A stretch of 48,223 nucleotides of DNA from Acidobacteriota bacterium (GTDB lineage: Bacteria; Acidobacteriota; G020349885). Position 1 is the first letter of the stretch. Each line of letters begins with the position of its first letter. The stretch covers positions 585,466 through 633,688 of the forward strand of contig CP070701.1 in the NCBI GenBank assembly GCA_020349885.1. The letters run 5' to 3'. The notes beneath the pieces are model-generated. The model was not told where the DNA came from. It searched no databases and worked only from the letters and a program-made list of their open reading frames with translations. The translations under genes were made by a program, and so were the position numbers. This document shows positions 1 to 6,028 of this stretch, in pieces.

Positions 1-271
1 AGTCGGCGCAGTCGTCACAGTCGGCGCAGTCGTCACAGTCGGCGCAGTCGTCACAGTCGGCGCAGTCGTCACAGTCGGCGCAGTCGTCACAGTCGTCACA
101 GTCGGCGCAGTCGTCACAGTCCGCGCAGTCGTCACAGTCGGCGCAGTCGTCACAGTCGTCACAGTCCGCACAGTCGTCACAGTCGGCGCAGTCCTCACAG
201 TCGGCACAGTCGGCACAGTCGTCACAGTCCGCACAGTCGGCACAGTCGTCACAATCGATACATTCGCCACA
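1..271 (-). repeat. (Cys-Xaa-Asp)n tract encoded by a 9/18-bp tandem repeat
   Basis: Read on the minus strand in the frame of the giant protein, a Cys codon lies at every ninth base from 271 down to 8: 30 cysteines without a miss, and the tract continues beyond the window. The triplets are almost all C-D-D or C-A-D, with single C-E-D and C-I-D variants at the right end. At DNA level the unit is 18 bp. In the first 130 bases CAD uses TGC and CDD uses TGT, which points to recent expansion of an 18-bp block. The reading frame and Cys periodicity are kept throughout, so the repeat is coding. Confidence 0.95.
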
Positions 272-3200
272 GACCCCCCCCGTGACGGTGAGCGGGTCCC
301 TGACAGCCACGCCCGTCTCGGCCAAGTCCCCAAAGTCCGGGACAAAGGCCGAGGATTTGCTAGAATTTATAACGTTGGTAAGCAGGTTCGCCTGGTTTCC
401 CGTCGAGAGCCAAGCATCCGTTGGCGGAGGGATATACCGGGCGCCATCGCAAAGGGACGCTCCGCCAATGGACTTTCCGCCAAAGACAACCATCTCACCA
501 CTAGTGGTATCCCAGACGGCTGAATGTTCGCTACGCGGGGAAGGGGCATCAATTGTTGTAACAGGGATCCATGTATTCGTGGCCGGAGTGTAGACCGCCC
601 CCGTGTCTGTAGGGGGGAGTGTTCTGCCCGTGGTTTCTTCGATGCCCGCCCCGCCCCAGACAATCATTTCCGCGCCCGTCCAGACGGCGGTATGAAGGTA
701 GCGCGGCATGGGAGCGTCGTTGTCAAATGCGCCCTTCGTTCCAACATCGGGATTCCATGTCTTGGAGGACGTGTTATAAACGCCGCCGCTCATGCTCGGG
801 GTGCCGTCCCCTCGCAGGCCGCCCCAGATAATCATCCGATTGCCAGCGTCGTCCCAAACGGCCGCCACCTGCGTTCCGACGCCCACGCCGGCGGTTGCAA
901 TTGGAAGCCAGGCGCTGGGCGGAGAGAATTGGTCAATCTCAGGTTCCGCGACGCCTGTCGGAGCACCGGAATAAGTGGACGCGGGGACACACGTTGGCCC
1001 TTTCTCGTCTATGAGGCCGTCCCCGTCGTCGTCCACACCGTTGGTGCAAGAGAGCGACGGGCCCTCCCCACACCAGGTGGGCCCTACCCAGAAGCGCAAA
1101 TAAAAGAGTCTAGAATCGAGGCCCGGATAGAAGCTTTTATTAAATATAAATTCATCTATTGAGCCGTCCCCGTCGTCGTCCACACCGTTGGTGCAATCGA
1201 ACTCGTCTATGAGGCCGTCCCCGTCGTCGTCCACACCGTTGGTGCAAGAGTTGGGGAGGAGCCCATCCGCACAGTCGGCACATGCTATACCGCCCGACTC
1301 GTCTATGAGGCCGTTCCAGTCGTTGTCGACGCCGTCGGTGCAATCGGTTTCGTCTATGAAGCCGTCCCCGTCGTTGTCAATGCCATCCGTGCAATCGAAG
1401 GCGAATTCATCTATGAAACCATCCGCGTCGCTGTCAACACCGTCGGTGCAATCGGTCTCGTCTATGAAGCCGTCCCCGTCGTCGTCTACACCGTTGGTGC
1501 AATCGGTTTCATCTGCGAGGCCGTCCCCGTCGTCGTCCGCAGCGTTGGTGCAATCGAGGTCGGCACAGTCGGCACAGTCGGCACATGCCGGCTCGTCCGT
1601 GAAGCCGTCCAAATCGTTGTCGACGCCGTCGGTGCAATCGGTTTCATCTGCGAGGCCGTCCCCGTCGTCGTCCACAACGTTGGTGCAATCGAGGTCGTCA
1701 CAGTCGCCGCATGACGGCTCGTCCGTGAAGCCGTCCAAGTCGTTGTCGACGCCGTCGGTGCAATCGGTCTCGTCTATGAAGCCGTCCAAGTCGTCGTCAC
1801 TCCCGTTGGTGCAATCGAACTCGTCTATGAGGAGGTCCCCGTCGTCGTCCACACCGTTGGCGCAATCGATGTCGGCACAGTCGCCGCAGTCGTCGCATAG
1901 CGGCTCGTCGCAGTCGTCGCATGGCGGCTCGTCTATCGGGCCGTCGAAGTCGTTGTCGACGCCGTCGGTGCAATCGGTCTCGTCTATGAAGCCGTCCCCG
2001 TCGTCGTCGATCCCGTTGGTGCAATCGAAGTAGGGTTCATCTATGAAAGCATCCCCGTCGTTGTCGACACCGTCGGTGCAATCGGTCTCGTCTATGAAGC
2101 CGTCCAAGTCATCGTCAATTCCGTTGGTGCAATCGGCATCGTCTATGATGCCGTCCCCGTCGTTGTCGACGTCGTCGGTGCAATTGAACTCGTCTATGAA
2201 GCCGTCCCCGTCGTCGTCGATCCCGTTGGTGCAATCGATGTCGGCACAGTCGGCACAGTCATCACAGTCGTTGCATAGCAGCTCGTCCATCAGGCCGTCC
2301 CCGTCGTTGTCGAAAAAGTCGACGCAATCGAACTCGTCTATATCTCCGTCCCCGTCGTCGTCCACACCGTTGGTGCAATTGCCAATGTCATCGGGCGTTC
2401 CTAGAATGCCATCTCCGCCTGGAAGGATGTCGGCACAGTCGTCACATAGCGGTTCGTCACAGTCGTCACATGGCGGCTCGTCCACCAGGCCGTCCCCGTT
2501 GTCGTCCACACCGTTGGTGCAATCGAACTCGTCTATGAAGCCGTCCCCGTCGTCGTCAATCCCGTTGGCGCAATCGATGTCGGCACAGTCGCCACATGGC
2601 AGCTCGTCTGTGAAGCCGTTCCCGTTGTTGTCAACACCGTCGAAACAATTGGACTCGCCACAACCGAACCCTCCAAACCCCCCGGGCCGCCAGTCGGAAG
2701 GGTTGTCCATCTCGTCTATTAAGCCGTCCAAGTCGTCGTCCCTGCAGTTGGTGCAATCGCCTTCGTCTACGAGACCGTCGCCGTCGTCGTCAAGCCCGTT
2801 GACGCAATCGACAAAGTACTCGTCTATGGAGCCGTCCCCGTCGTCGTCCACACCGTTGGTGCAATCGGTCTCGTCTATATCTCCGTCCCCGTCGTCGTCC
2901 ACACCGTTGGTGCAATTGAACATGCCGCCGTCGGCACAGTCGGCGCATGACGGCTCGTCTACCAAGCCGTCTGCGTCGTCGTCAAGCCTGTTGACGCAAT
3001 CGAACTCGTCTATGAAGCCGTCCAAGTCGTCGTCGATCCCGTTGGTGCAATCGACGGCGCCGAATTCATCTGTGAGAAAATCCCAGTCGTTGTCAATGCC
3101 ATCCGTGCAATTGGTCTCGTCTATATCTCCGTCCCCGTCGTCGTCAATGCTGTTGTAGCAATCGGAGTCGTCTCTTTCGTCTACGAGGCCGTCCCCGTCG

Positions 3201-5911
3201 TCGTCAACGCCGTTGAAGCAATTGGGATTGAACGGGCCGCCGTCTTCACAGCAATAGGCGTATTCACAGTCGTCACAGTCGGCACAGCCGCCACTGTCGG
3301 CACAGTCGCCACATGACAGCTCGTCTATGCGTAAGTCCCCGTCGTTGTCAACACCGTCTACACAATTGATGGTGAGACAGTCACTGCACTGGCCGCCGAC
3401 GATCTCGTCTATTAGACCGTCGCCGTCGTTGTCACCACTGCCGGGGGTGCAATCGCTGGTGAGACAGTCGTCACATGCCCTGTCGGCACAGTCGGCACAA
3501 CCCCCGATTCCATCGGCAAGCAGGTCCAGGTAGCCTTGGTCAACGCTAATAACACCGTCTATAAACAGGGGGTACTTCCTATCATCGGCACCGGAAGACC
3601 TGGTCGGGTCGCTGATAGGACAGGGGAAGCCGTTTATGACCTGCCAGCCCGCCCCGTCCCAATATTCCACAATCATGTGCTTTCCACCGTCCCAGCACGT
3701 ATTGGGAGTCGGATTAGTAGTACCTGGCTCCGTAAAAACGGAGGCAGATGTCCGCTTATAAAGAATCTGACCAAAAAGCCCCGCCGTTCCTCCCACGACG
3801 ACATATTTCGCCTTTGAGCCGAAGGTCGGGCCGAACGCCGGAGCGCACTTGCCCGCCTGGCATGTGCCGCTGTCGTCATCCACAAAAAATTCCTGCGAAA
3901 CGTCATCCATCAGATTTCCGACGGCGTCCATGCGAAGCGCCTTGAAAGCGACGAGGGTGGGGACTGCAGGGTTAAACTCCCATCCATCTTTTAAAACTTT
4001 TGTTCCACGCTGGCCGCCCCACATGAGCATCCTCGCACCTGTCCACACGGCCACGTGGCCGCGCCGCCCGGCGCCCGCACCAGGGGCGGGCGGCGGAGGT
4101 ATCGGCGCCCACGAATCCTGCGCCGGGTCGTACAGTCCGCCGTCCGCGAAGAAAACAATCCCGTTCGTCCCTCCCCAGACGACCATTTCCCCGCCCGACC
4201 ACACCGCCGTGTGCTCGCCCCTCGGGGCAGGGGCGCCTGTCGGATCCACAAGGGTCCATGCGTTTGCTGGAAGTGCTGCGGGGTCGTAGCGGGCGCCGTC
4301 ACCGAGCCTCGTCCCCAGCAGGTCCGGCACCCCGCCCCAGACAATCATTTCCGTCCCCGTCCAGACGGCCGTGTGCTGAAAACGGCCCTCGATGGGACAC
4401 GCGGCGCCGTCGAGCACCGTCCACCCTCCCCCCGGAGTGTAGCGCGCCCCCGTATTTAATGCCGTTCCCGCAAGGTCCTGCCACCCGCCCCAGACAATCA
4501 TTTCCGTCCCCGTCCAGACGGCCGTGTGCTTGAAACGGGACTCGACCCCGATCGGAGCGCCGGGAATAGCCTCCCACGTATCCGAAACAGGGTCATAGAT
4601 TCCTCCGGCGCTTGCATTGAGGCTACCACCCGTAAAAGGATCCATGTCGCTCAAGCCGTCCATAACGTCGTCAAAGCCGCCCCAGACAATCATCTTTGTG
4701 CCCGTCCACACCGCCGTGTGGTACATGCGCGGCGTGGGAGCGCCGATGGTCGAGATGGGCGTCCAGTAGCCGAGGGCGCCCGGGGCGTAGCGATAGCCGG
4801 TGTTAAAAAGAATCTCGCCGCCCTCGAACGTTGTTCCGCCCCATACAATCATCTCCGTGCCCGTCCAGACGGCCGTATGGCCGTAGCGCGGCCCGGGAGG
4901 TCCGCTTCTCTCCCAGCTGGCTCCGGAGGGAGGGGCCGTAGGCAGCGGTACGAGAGGCATGGGCTCGCTCCAACTGCTCGTGGACTCGAAAGAGGTGCTG
5001 AGCGGTTCCATCGCCCAACCCGGCGGGCTTGCTTCGGCGATCCAATCGTCAAGGGGCTTCTTGGGGACGAAGAGGCTTTCCACGACAAGCGTGCCCGGGT
5101 CTTCGGCGCTTACATGCTCGATCACGAAACCGTCTGAGAGTTCGCGAACGGGACTGATTTGCCCCTCGGGAGGAAGCGCCCGTCGCTTGCGCTCGAATAC
5201 TTTGCTCTCGAGCTCGATTTCCGCGCCCCGCCGAAAGAACCCCTTTCTTGCCGCTCCGGTGCCGGCAGGGCCGGCACCTTCGGAAACGACGCGGCGCAAC
5301 GTGGCGCGGGAATACCGGGCCTTGCCGGCGAACTCCTCAAGGCGACCCGGCTGAAGCTCCGCGTGAATGCTCTCCGCCCGCTCGCGCGCTTCGCGGTGAA
5401 TCTCGGGGTCTCGCTCGTAGCGCGAGCGCAGTAAGCGCCCCGTCAAAATGGGCCGCACCAGAGCCTCTTTAATGAGATACGGGTCGCCCCCGAGGGCATC
5501 GAAAATGCGCTGAAGCGTTTCGGGATCCTTCGTCTCGCGCACGATGCGCGCGAGTTCCTGGTCCAGCGCTTCCTGGGAAATCGACTCGCCGAACACATTC
5601 TTCAAGGCCCAGTTTTGCCGCAAGGTGCGCTGCACCCCGGCCTCCAGGGCCTCTTCCGAAACGGCCCGCACAGATGCCGATGGGCTGGCTTCGAGGCGCT
5701 TCGAGCGGTAAACCTCCTCAATGGCGCGCTGAGCGTTCACCCGCTCCCAGAACTGAAGCCCCCTCCCTTCTTCTGTGCCCGTTATGCCCGTGAACTGACC
5801 CCACACAGGCAGCACAAGCACCAGCAAGCAGGCCACAGCACCGACGAAGCCGACGCGCCCGACTCGAGAAGCGCTAGCCGCCGGCAGCAACGCACATCCC
5901 CTTCGGGACAC
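1..5911 (-). CDS. Giant exported Kelch / Asp-repeat / Cys-triplet protein (3' end off window)
   Basis: One open minus frame without a stop from a GTG at 5911 to the window edge, about 1970 residues; the C-terminus is missing. The GTG is preceded by GGAAAGG and follows a good promoter. The N-terminus is basic and then hydrophobic (VGFVGAVACLLVLVLPVWG), so a signal peptide to about residue 38. Residues 40-330 are charged and probably helical, family unknown. Six Kelch-like blades with the motif HTAVWTGxEMIVWGG follow (about 345-630). Next come 35 Asp-rich repeats of the DCTNGVDDDGDGxIDE type (about 820-1635), like MopE-type or thrombospondin type-3 calcium motifs. Three more Kelch-like blades follow (about 1680-1810). 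From about residue 1881 Cys occurs at every third position. I infer an extracellular, calcium-binding, Cys-rich surface protein. No enzymatic domain is visible. Confidence 0.88.
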   Translation of the reverse strand, partial: MSRRGCALLPAASASRVGRVGFVGAVACLLVLVLPVWGQFTGITGTEEGRGLQFWERVNAQRAIEEVYRSKRLEASPSASVRAVSEEALEAGVQRTLRQNWALKNVFGESISQEALDQELARIVRETKDPETLQRIFDALGGDPYLIKEALVRPILTGRLLRSRYERDPEIHREARERAESIHAELQPGRLEEFAGKARYSRATLRRVVSEGAGPAGTGAARKGFFRRGAEIELESKVFERKRRALPPEGQISPVRELSDGFVIEHVSAEDPGTLVVESLFVPKKPLDDWIAEASPPGWAMEPLSTSFESTSSWSEPMPLVPLPTAPPSGASWERSGPPGPRYGHTAVWTGTEMIVWGGTTFEGGEILFNTGYRYAPGALGYWTPISTIGAPTPRMYHTAVWTGTKMIVWGGFDDVMDGLSDMDPFTGGSLNASAGGIYDPVSDTWEAIPGAPIGVESRFKHTAVWTGTEMIVWGGWQDLAGTALNTGARYTPGGGWTVLDGAACPIEGRFQHTAVWTGTEMIVWGGVPDLLGTRLGDGARYDPAALPANAWTLVDPTGAPAPRGEHTAVWSGGEMVVWGGTNGIVFFADGGLYDPAQDSWAPIPPPPAPGAGAGRRGHVAVWTGARMLMWGGQRGTKVLKDGWEFNPAVPTLVAFKALRMDAVGNLMDDVSQEFFVDDDSGTCQAGKCAPAFGPTFGSKAKYVVVGGTAGLFGQILYKRTSASVFTEPGTTNPTPNTCWDGGKHMIVEYWDGAGWQVINGFPCPISDPTRSSGADDRKYPLFIDGVISVDQGYLDLLADGIGGCADCADRACDDCLTSDCTPGSGDNDGDGLIDEIVGGQCSDCLTINCVDGVDNDGDLRIDELSCGDCADSGGCADCDDCEYAYCCEDGGPFNPNCFNGVDDDGDGLVDERDDSDCYNSIDDDGDGDIDETNCTDGIDNDWDFLTDEFGAVDCTNGIDDDLDGFIDEFDCVNRLDDDADGLVDEPSCADCADGGMFNCTNGVDDDGDGDIDETDCTNGVDDDGDGSIDEYFVDCVNGLDDDGDGLVDEGDCTNCRDDDLDGLIDEMDNPSDWRPGGFGGFGCGESNCFDGVDNNGNGFTDELPCGDCADIDCANGIDDDGDGFIDEFDCTNGVDDNGDGLVDEPPCDDCDEPLCDDCADILPGGDGILGTPDDIGNCTNGVDDDGDGDIDEFDCVDFFDNDGDGLMDELLCNDCDDCADCADIDCTNGIDDDGDGFIDEFNCTDDVDNDGDGIIDDADCTNGIDDDLDGFIDETDCTDGVDNDGDAFIDEPYFDCTNGIDDDGDGFIDETDCTDGVDNDFDGPIDEPPCDDCDEPLCDDCGDCADIDCANGVDDDGDLLIDEFDCTNGSDDDLDGFIDETDCTDGVDNDLDGFTDEPSCGDCDDLDCTNVVDDDGDGLADETDCTDGVDNDLDGFTDEPACADCADCADLDCTNAADDDGDGLADETDCTNGVDDDGDGFIDETDCTDGVDSDADGFIDEFAFDCTDGIDNDGDGFIDETDCTDGVDNDWNGLIDESGGIACADCADGLLPNSCTNGVDDDGDGLIDEFDCTNGVDDDGDGSIDEFIFNKSFYPGLDSRLFYLRFWVGPTWCGEGPSLSCTNGVDDDGDGLIDEKGPTCVPASTYSGAPTGVAEPEIDQFSPPSAWLPIATAGVGVGTQVAAVWDDAGNRMIIWGGLRGDGTPSMSGGVYNTSSKTWNPDVGTKGAFDNDAPMPRYLHTAVWTGAEMIVWGGAGIEETTGRTLPPTDTGAVYTPATNTWIPVTTIDAPSPRSEHSAVWDTTSGEMVVFGGKSIGGASLCDGARYIPPPTDAWLSTGNQANLLTNVINSSKSSAFVPDFGDLAETGVAVRDPLTVTGGVCGECIDCDDCADCADCDDCADCADCEDCADCDDCADCDDCDDCADCDDCADCDDCADCDDCDDCADCDDCADCDDCADCDDCADCDDCAD
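1003..3455 (-). repeat. 35 Asp-rich calcium-motif repeats (about 48-51 bp each)
   Basis: I count 35 units of the form DC(T/V/A)(N/D)G(V/I)D(D/N)DGDG(x)IDE in the giant minus-strand protein. Units with DDDGDG and units with DNDxDG often alternate, as if pairs had been duplicated. Short Cys-rich spacers (for example CDDCADCADIDC) separate some units. The D-x-D-x-D-G spacing is that of calcium-binding loops in thrombospondin type-3 and MopE-type repeats. Plus-strand ORFs across this region are antisense shadows. Confidence 0.9.
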
Positions 5912-5999
5912 TGCCTTTCCATCGCCATGCCCGCCTTTTGGAACAAGAGGTCTCCCCCTCGGCGGGGCTTGAGCCTTGCCTTGCACTTTCACAGTTTGC

Positions 6000-6028
6000 A
6001 TTATACCACGGAAATCCGGAAAAATCAA
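6000..6028 (-). promoter_or_regulatory. Promoter of the giant Kelch/Asp-repeat protein
   Basis: On the minus strand TTGATT (6028-6023) and TATAAT (6005-6000) are separated by 17 nt, with TGG just before the -10 box (extended -10). The start codon is about 89 nt downstream of the -10 box, leaving a leader of some 80 nt. Confidence 0.75.

Follow-up and report, generated by a model that had tools for sequence, protein, structure and literature searches.

The window analysed here is a 48,223-nucleotide stretch (G000:C1:585466-633688, base 1 being 585466) of a 2.4-Mb Acidobacteriota assembly that forms one scaffold. Its left end is occupied by the open reading frame P0001, whose product runs from an N-terminal signal through an uncharacterised region, a Kelch propeller, an 838-residue acidic array and a second Kelch part to a cysteine tract (Table 1). 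The description of P0001 as a giant exported protein in the initial annotation agrees with its 2000 open codons and hydrophobic N-terminal export signal.

Table 1. Features of P0001, numbered by position in the window.
Feature	Position	Strand	Basis or remark
Giant exported-protein ORF P0001, 2000 residues in window, ATG at 6001	2..6001	-	3' end missing in gap
N-terminal region with hydrophobic export signal (VGFVGAVACLLVLVLPVWGQ)	5798..6001	-	Direct sequence reading
First Kelch-repeat (beta-propeller) region	3932..4966	-	Pfam PF24681 8.4e-49, PF24981 1.5e-36
Array of 17-residue Cys and calcium-loop units (CTNGVDDDGDGLIDEFD), interspersed with short C-x-D runs	986..3499	-	34 units in P0001
Short CxD run CNDCDDCADCAD within array, leading into IDCTNGIDDDGDG	2240..2275	-	Sequence
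Short CxD run CDDCGDCAD within array	1871..1897	-	Sequence
Short CxD run CADCADCAD within array	1559..1585	-	Sequence
Second Kelch region, between array and tract	362..985	-	Pfam Kelch_3 stretch, residues 1720-1773
(Cys-Xaa-Asp)30 tract, residues 1911-2000 of P0001	2..271	-	Cut off by scaffold gap

The cysteine tract and its host protein

All 30 cysteines of the (Cys-Xaa-Asp)30 tract lie at nine-base spacing on the minus strand, from base 271 down to bases 8-10. Every position of this register was checked, and the exact triplet spacing in the frame of the giant ORF is real. The triplets are CAD (14), CDD (13), CGE (1), CID (1) and CED (1), in keeping with the strict Cys and Asp registers and the predominance of CAD and CDD first reported for them. 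Each of the last 28 triplets is C-A/D/E-D. The 90 residues comprise 30 Cys, 44 acidic and no basic residues, with a net charge of -44.

The tract DNA is an 18-bp tandem array (TRF; 15.1 copies, 89% matches, window positions 1-272). Among the 28 strict units, three of the nine columns vary: the third base of the Cys codon and the last two bases of the middle codon. The synonymous third base (wobble) of the Asp codon is the same in all of these units, which suggests that they were copied recently; the Asp codons of the tract are almost exclusively GAC. Six different 9-mers make up the tract, their order partly irregular, and the final units are perfect 18-bp copies. The proposed growth by 18-bp units is supported in the form of 9/18-bp units, the period given by TRF being 18. 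The accompanying rule that the Cys codon follows the next residue holds for TGT before Asp (13/13) and is looser for TGC before Ala (only 9/14). The other open frames across the tract are mechanical shadows of a stop-free repeat.

A 100-N scaffold gap (585366-585465) lies directly left of window base 1, and the window and the known tract stop there because of it. Past the gap is a single-copy flank that adjoins a cupin-like gene and contains no CxD repeat. The remainder of P0001 is therefore mostly inside the gap, if the scaffold order is right, and the C-terminus of the protein and the 3' end of the gene fall within it. The continuation of the tract off the window, as first described, is not seen in the assembly, where base 1 abuts the gap and the flank beyond is free of the repeat. 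An Rfam search around the gap gave no match.

The array unit of P0001 is C-TNGV-DDDGDGLIDEFD, which consists of one Cys and a 12-residue calcium-type loop. Within the array, CxD runs of two to four triplets, typically CADCADIDCTNGIDDDGDG, stand ahead of the units. The tract is a greatly enlarged form of this short C-x-D lead ahead of the 17-residue unit.

A dispersed in-frame unit in exported-protein genes

In this genome, 17 genes together contain 115 copies of the 17-residue unit. A sequence-only model of the 48-nt unit, built from 36 unit copies, gives 124 matches genome-wide at E<1e-4. These counts (124 matches, 17 genes) are a lower bound, since 150 of 2777 first-look candidates were scored. 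The matches fall in 17 ORFs, and each newly inspected one is in the frame of the unit, with the exception of a weak partial match in a subtilase. The hosts, some of them named from sequence reading, are two Kelch proteins, LptD, a PilY1-like protein, a C25 peptidase, an OmpA-family barrel, two DUF5916 proteins, a porin-like protein, an OMP barrel, a carboxypeptidase-regulatory-like protein, a protease-like giant, a TSP3-type protein and four lipoproteins. Wherever the N-terminus could be read or the family assigned, the host looks exported; the N-terminus is not visible in the second Kelch protein or in the protein at 1140 kb. The units keep C (100%), D14 (100%), D6 (99%) and E15 (97%), although the search pattern itself demanded C and D/N there.

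CxD runs lead the units in P0001 and in five other proteins. Outside P0001, the runs in proteins of this genome have only 2-7 triplets, so the long form is not conserved. Such runs recur in the second Kelch protein (410-413 kb), itself interrupted by a 100-N gap, and at 1237 kb in a cohesin-like lipoprotein. In the latter, Asp is encoded by GAT in 6 of 7 cases, whereas the tract uses almost exclusively GAC; the CxD pattern is thus kept at the protein level under different codons.

The second Kelch and acidic-repeat protein ends in a dockerin-like EF-hand pair (L010:6078-6300, minus strand), and the same genome encodes cohesin-like lipoproteins at 1237 and 1495 kb. Further 100-N gaps lie in or at repeat-bearing exported-protein genes (L010:11298-11397, L162:5827-5926 and L165:11940-12039), where the assembly breaks coincide with repeats.

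In LptD (L161:2618-4990, equal to G000:C1:509617-511989, minus strand), the barrel region holds an in-frame Cys/Asp module (CADCDDIDCSNGIDDDGDGFTDETNCADGADNDGDTLIDELD and flank) about 46 residues long. The sequences on its two sides almost adjoin each other in relatives from the same phylum, and the module is absent from 23 of 23 aligned same-phylum orthologues; the comparison genomes are related to the source at phylum level only. In the PilY1-like host, 115 residues separate the anchors on either side of the module, compared with 27 in PDB 3hx6. By inspection, a similar interruption appears in a PKD-type lipoprotein and in the C25 peptidase. Judged from these alignments, the units in hosts such as LptD are insertions that interrupt conserved domains. 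Two neighbouring DUF5916 paralogues (L224:2220-4700 and L224:4486-7029) share a single unit at the same position, and this insertion is therefore probably older than the paralogue duplication.

Rare synonymous codons recur by position in the units of different hosts. Ile13 is ATA in 60/60 cases in the three large arrays and in 7/11 cases in the 14 minor hosts (background 14%), Gly9 is GGG in 61/64 and 14/19 (background 23%), and Thr2 is ACC in 54/56 and 15/15 (background 32%). For the minor hosts, binomial tests give p = 2e-4, 4e-6 and 4e-8, respectively, under an assumption of independent units that tandem copies violate. Counting only the first unit of each host, the codons are ATA in 7/9, GGG in 11/13 and ACC in 10/10. 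This recurrence argues that the unit copies are related as DNA. Copying or gene conversion explains the codon sharing; convergent protein-level selection does not.

A paralogue of the P0001 array domain lies at L164:4826-8167 (G000:C1:2168 kb), and its DNA flanks are 91% and 95% identical to those in P0001. Between the same anchors there are 46 residues in the paralogue versus 803 in P0001, which indicates that arrays change length fast. It is a tentative proposal, somewhat short of probable, that a self-spreading in-frame coding repeat confined to envelope proteins has colonised exported-protein genes and interrupts LptD, PilY1, the C25 peptidase and porins, with the (CxD)n tract as its runaway expansion.

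Related repeats and tracts in other systems

The model NF033662 (acid_disulf_rpt) has the core C-x-[ND]-G-x-D-[ND]-D-G-D-G in common with the window unit and matches P0001 in 17 stretches; further genes of the genome match it as well. The hmmscan score for P0001 is 31 bits, against a curated cut-off of 41, and 46.6-46.9 bits when neighbouring units are summed. Classical members, for example in Myxococcota and Planctomycetota, resemble CTDGIDNDGDGLTDCADPDC; they have four Cys in every 32 residues and hardly any CxD runs. Unlike these, the unit described here has 17 residues, a single Cys and CxD runs ahead of it, and it lacks the arrangement of four Cys in two disulfides. Searching the literature under the name of the acidic repeat gave no papers. 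Tandem DxDxDGxxDxxD loops with interspersed Cys are also a feature of thrombospondin type 3 and dockerin repeats. There are 16 strict loops of this kind in P0001, but their spacing and Cys pattern differ from those of thrombospondin type 3 and dockerin repeats, and Pfam TSP3 is not among the matches to P0001 at E up to 1.

Rickettsia palindromic elements are palindromic DNA repeats dispersed in frame inside unrelated protein genes of many kinds. The unit described here is likewise dispersed and in frame, being present in LptD and absent from the 23 orthologues. It differs in being tandemly amplified, in lying in exported proteins and in having no obvious palindrome by eye.

The strict spacing of the tract recurs in the phage family PHROG_15341, which also has Cys at every third residue, mostly as C-x-D. 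The tract matches this family with E = 1.8e-11 over 90 residues, a match driven by composition and Cys periodicity. The phage proteins (PHROG_15341/PHROG_31265, with no Pfam assignment; loci L178, L179, L181, L184, L187, L188, L190 and L193) contain an unbroken run of 17-56 C-x-[D/G/R] triplets flanked by conserved N- and C-terminal parts, the C-terminal one being in most cases a WHTC..THCRAGW domain. They differ from P0001 in that position 2 is mostly Ser, Arg or Lys, position 3 may also be Gly or Arg, and Kelch or calcium-loop units are absent. In heterocycloanthracin precursors, Cys-Xaa-Xaa is the repeating functional unit (PMC2674419). The statement that no described family has this pattern is not supported in view of these two families, both with strict Cys-Xaa-Xaa tracts. 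The tract is a variant of known Cys-Xaa-Xaa and acidic-repeat architectures and is not unprecedented.

Across 59 same-phylum genomes, (CxD)5 has no occurrence. A scan of the whole sequence collection for (CxD)6 gives at least 116 stretches. Most of those listed were rejected as 9-bp minisatellites that lie in short ORFs or have longer competing frames. A plausible coding case is a 155-aa protein on the minus strand of L037, a Prevotella MAG, with a C-terminal (CxD)16 tail of the pattern CDDCEDCDDCSD. A Sphingomonas protein (L055) is the other.

Origin and possible function of the tract

The explanation that is somewhat favoured on the sequences is that the tract is an in-frame expansion of the C-x-D lead of the dispersed module, copied and exported, and that it may serve as a calcium, metal or disulfide wire. 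On this account a giant exported Kelch and acidic-repeat protein has, close to its known 3' end, a genuine coding tract that was expanded in frame by 9/18-bp units from a module of the form (C-x-D)n-I-D-C-[TNGxDDDGDGxIDExDC]m. The frame that the tract shares with the Kelch and acidic-repeat domains of P0001 supports this explanation. Copies may have spread via gene conversion or template copying, and arrays may grow via slippage or unequal recombination. They would persist because exported loops tolerate, or gain from, an acidic Cys-bearing rod. By analogy with thrombospondin type 3 and dockerin loops, each 12-residue loop would bind Ca2+. The first Cys of every unit, like the Cys ladder in the tract, could form disulfides, chelate divalent metals or both, which would give the cell surface a long wire stiffened by metal.

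AlphaFold2 predicts no structure for the window tract (pLDDT 50) and no usable fold for the phage tract (pLDDT about 30), and a Foldseek search with the phage-family model found nothing. These models yield neither the polyproline-II rod nor the beta-solenoid rod that had been suggested. A PDB sequence search with the tract returned a beetle antifreeze protein as the best hit (0.0017), which was rejected as driven by Cys content. VKOR is absent from the genome, a point against assuming a disulfide-forming pathway. A Ca2+- or metal-binding, disulfide-capable acidic rod is the best guess for the tract from its sequence.

The tract could instead be a neutral expansion, and this ranks as the main rival. 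A neutral or selfish coding repeat would spread by DNA processes and be tolerated in exported loops, leaving a functionless, disordered tract. The missing predicted fold is what such a repeat would give, as are the codon conservation at the DNA level across hosts, the unequal arrays between near-identical paralogous flanks and the invariant Asp wobble; most 9-bp CxD minisatellites elsewhere also look non-coding. This account is nevertheless less likely than expansion of a functional module. It does not readily accommodate the export of all judgeable hosts, the CxD runs kept under different codons in other hosts, or the retained Cys, Asp and calcium-loop positions, although the search pattern required C and D/N.

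The original interpretation, in which the tract was selected in its own right as a disulfide-ladder rod or linear metal-binding polymer, is improbable. Strict registers, 30 Cys and a net charge of -44 in 90 residues would suit such a polymer, and the phage proteins keep their long tracts between conserved domains. Structure is predicted for neither tract, however, and the other CxD proteins of the genome carry only the short runs. Of the original interpretation overall, the exported giant, the registers and the growth by units stand, the absence of a described family does not, and the spread of the module through at least 17 genes was overlooked.

An assembly artefact or untranslated minisatellite is very unlikely. 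The tract does run up against a scaffold gap, and perfect 18-bp copies make up its final units, but the mixed order of its 9-mers, the 2000-codon open frame and the recurrence elsewhere of the CxD motif under different codons oppose this reading. A thiazole-containing bacteriocin precursor with a heterocycloanthracin-like core (TIGR03601) has a published precedent for Cys-Xaa-Xaa (PMC2674419) and is scarcely credible here, since such precursors are small (generally 50-70 residues, versus an ORF of at least 2000 residues with Kelch domains) and depend on a leader and a cyclodehydratase system, while YcaO (PF02624) has no match in the genome in a search that detected its positive controls, which contradicts a TOMM bacteriocin route.

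More surprising than the tract itself is the dispersal of an in-frame module, most of all its presence in LptD. Conserved envelope proteins, among them LptD, an LPS transporter that is essential, have acquired a short coding repeat that retains its frame and rare synonymous codons, and the length of its arrays can vary by over 700 residues where the paralogous flanks are almost the same. Confirmation in related strains would make this a bacterial case for studying the spread and tolerance of coding repeats, and it would provide a natural series of C-x-D polymers for metal and thiol chemistry.
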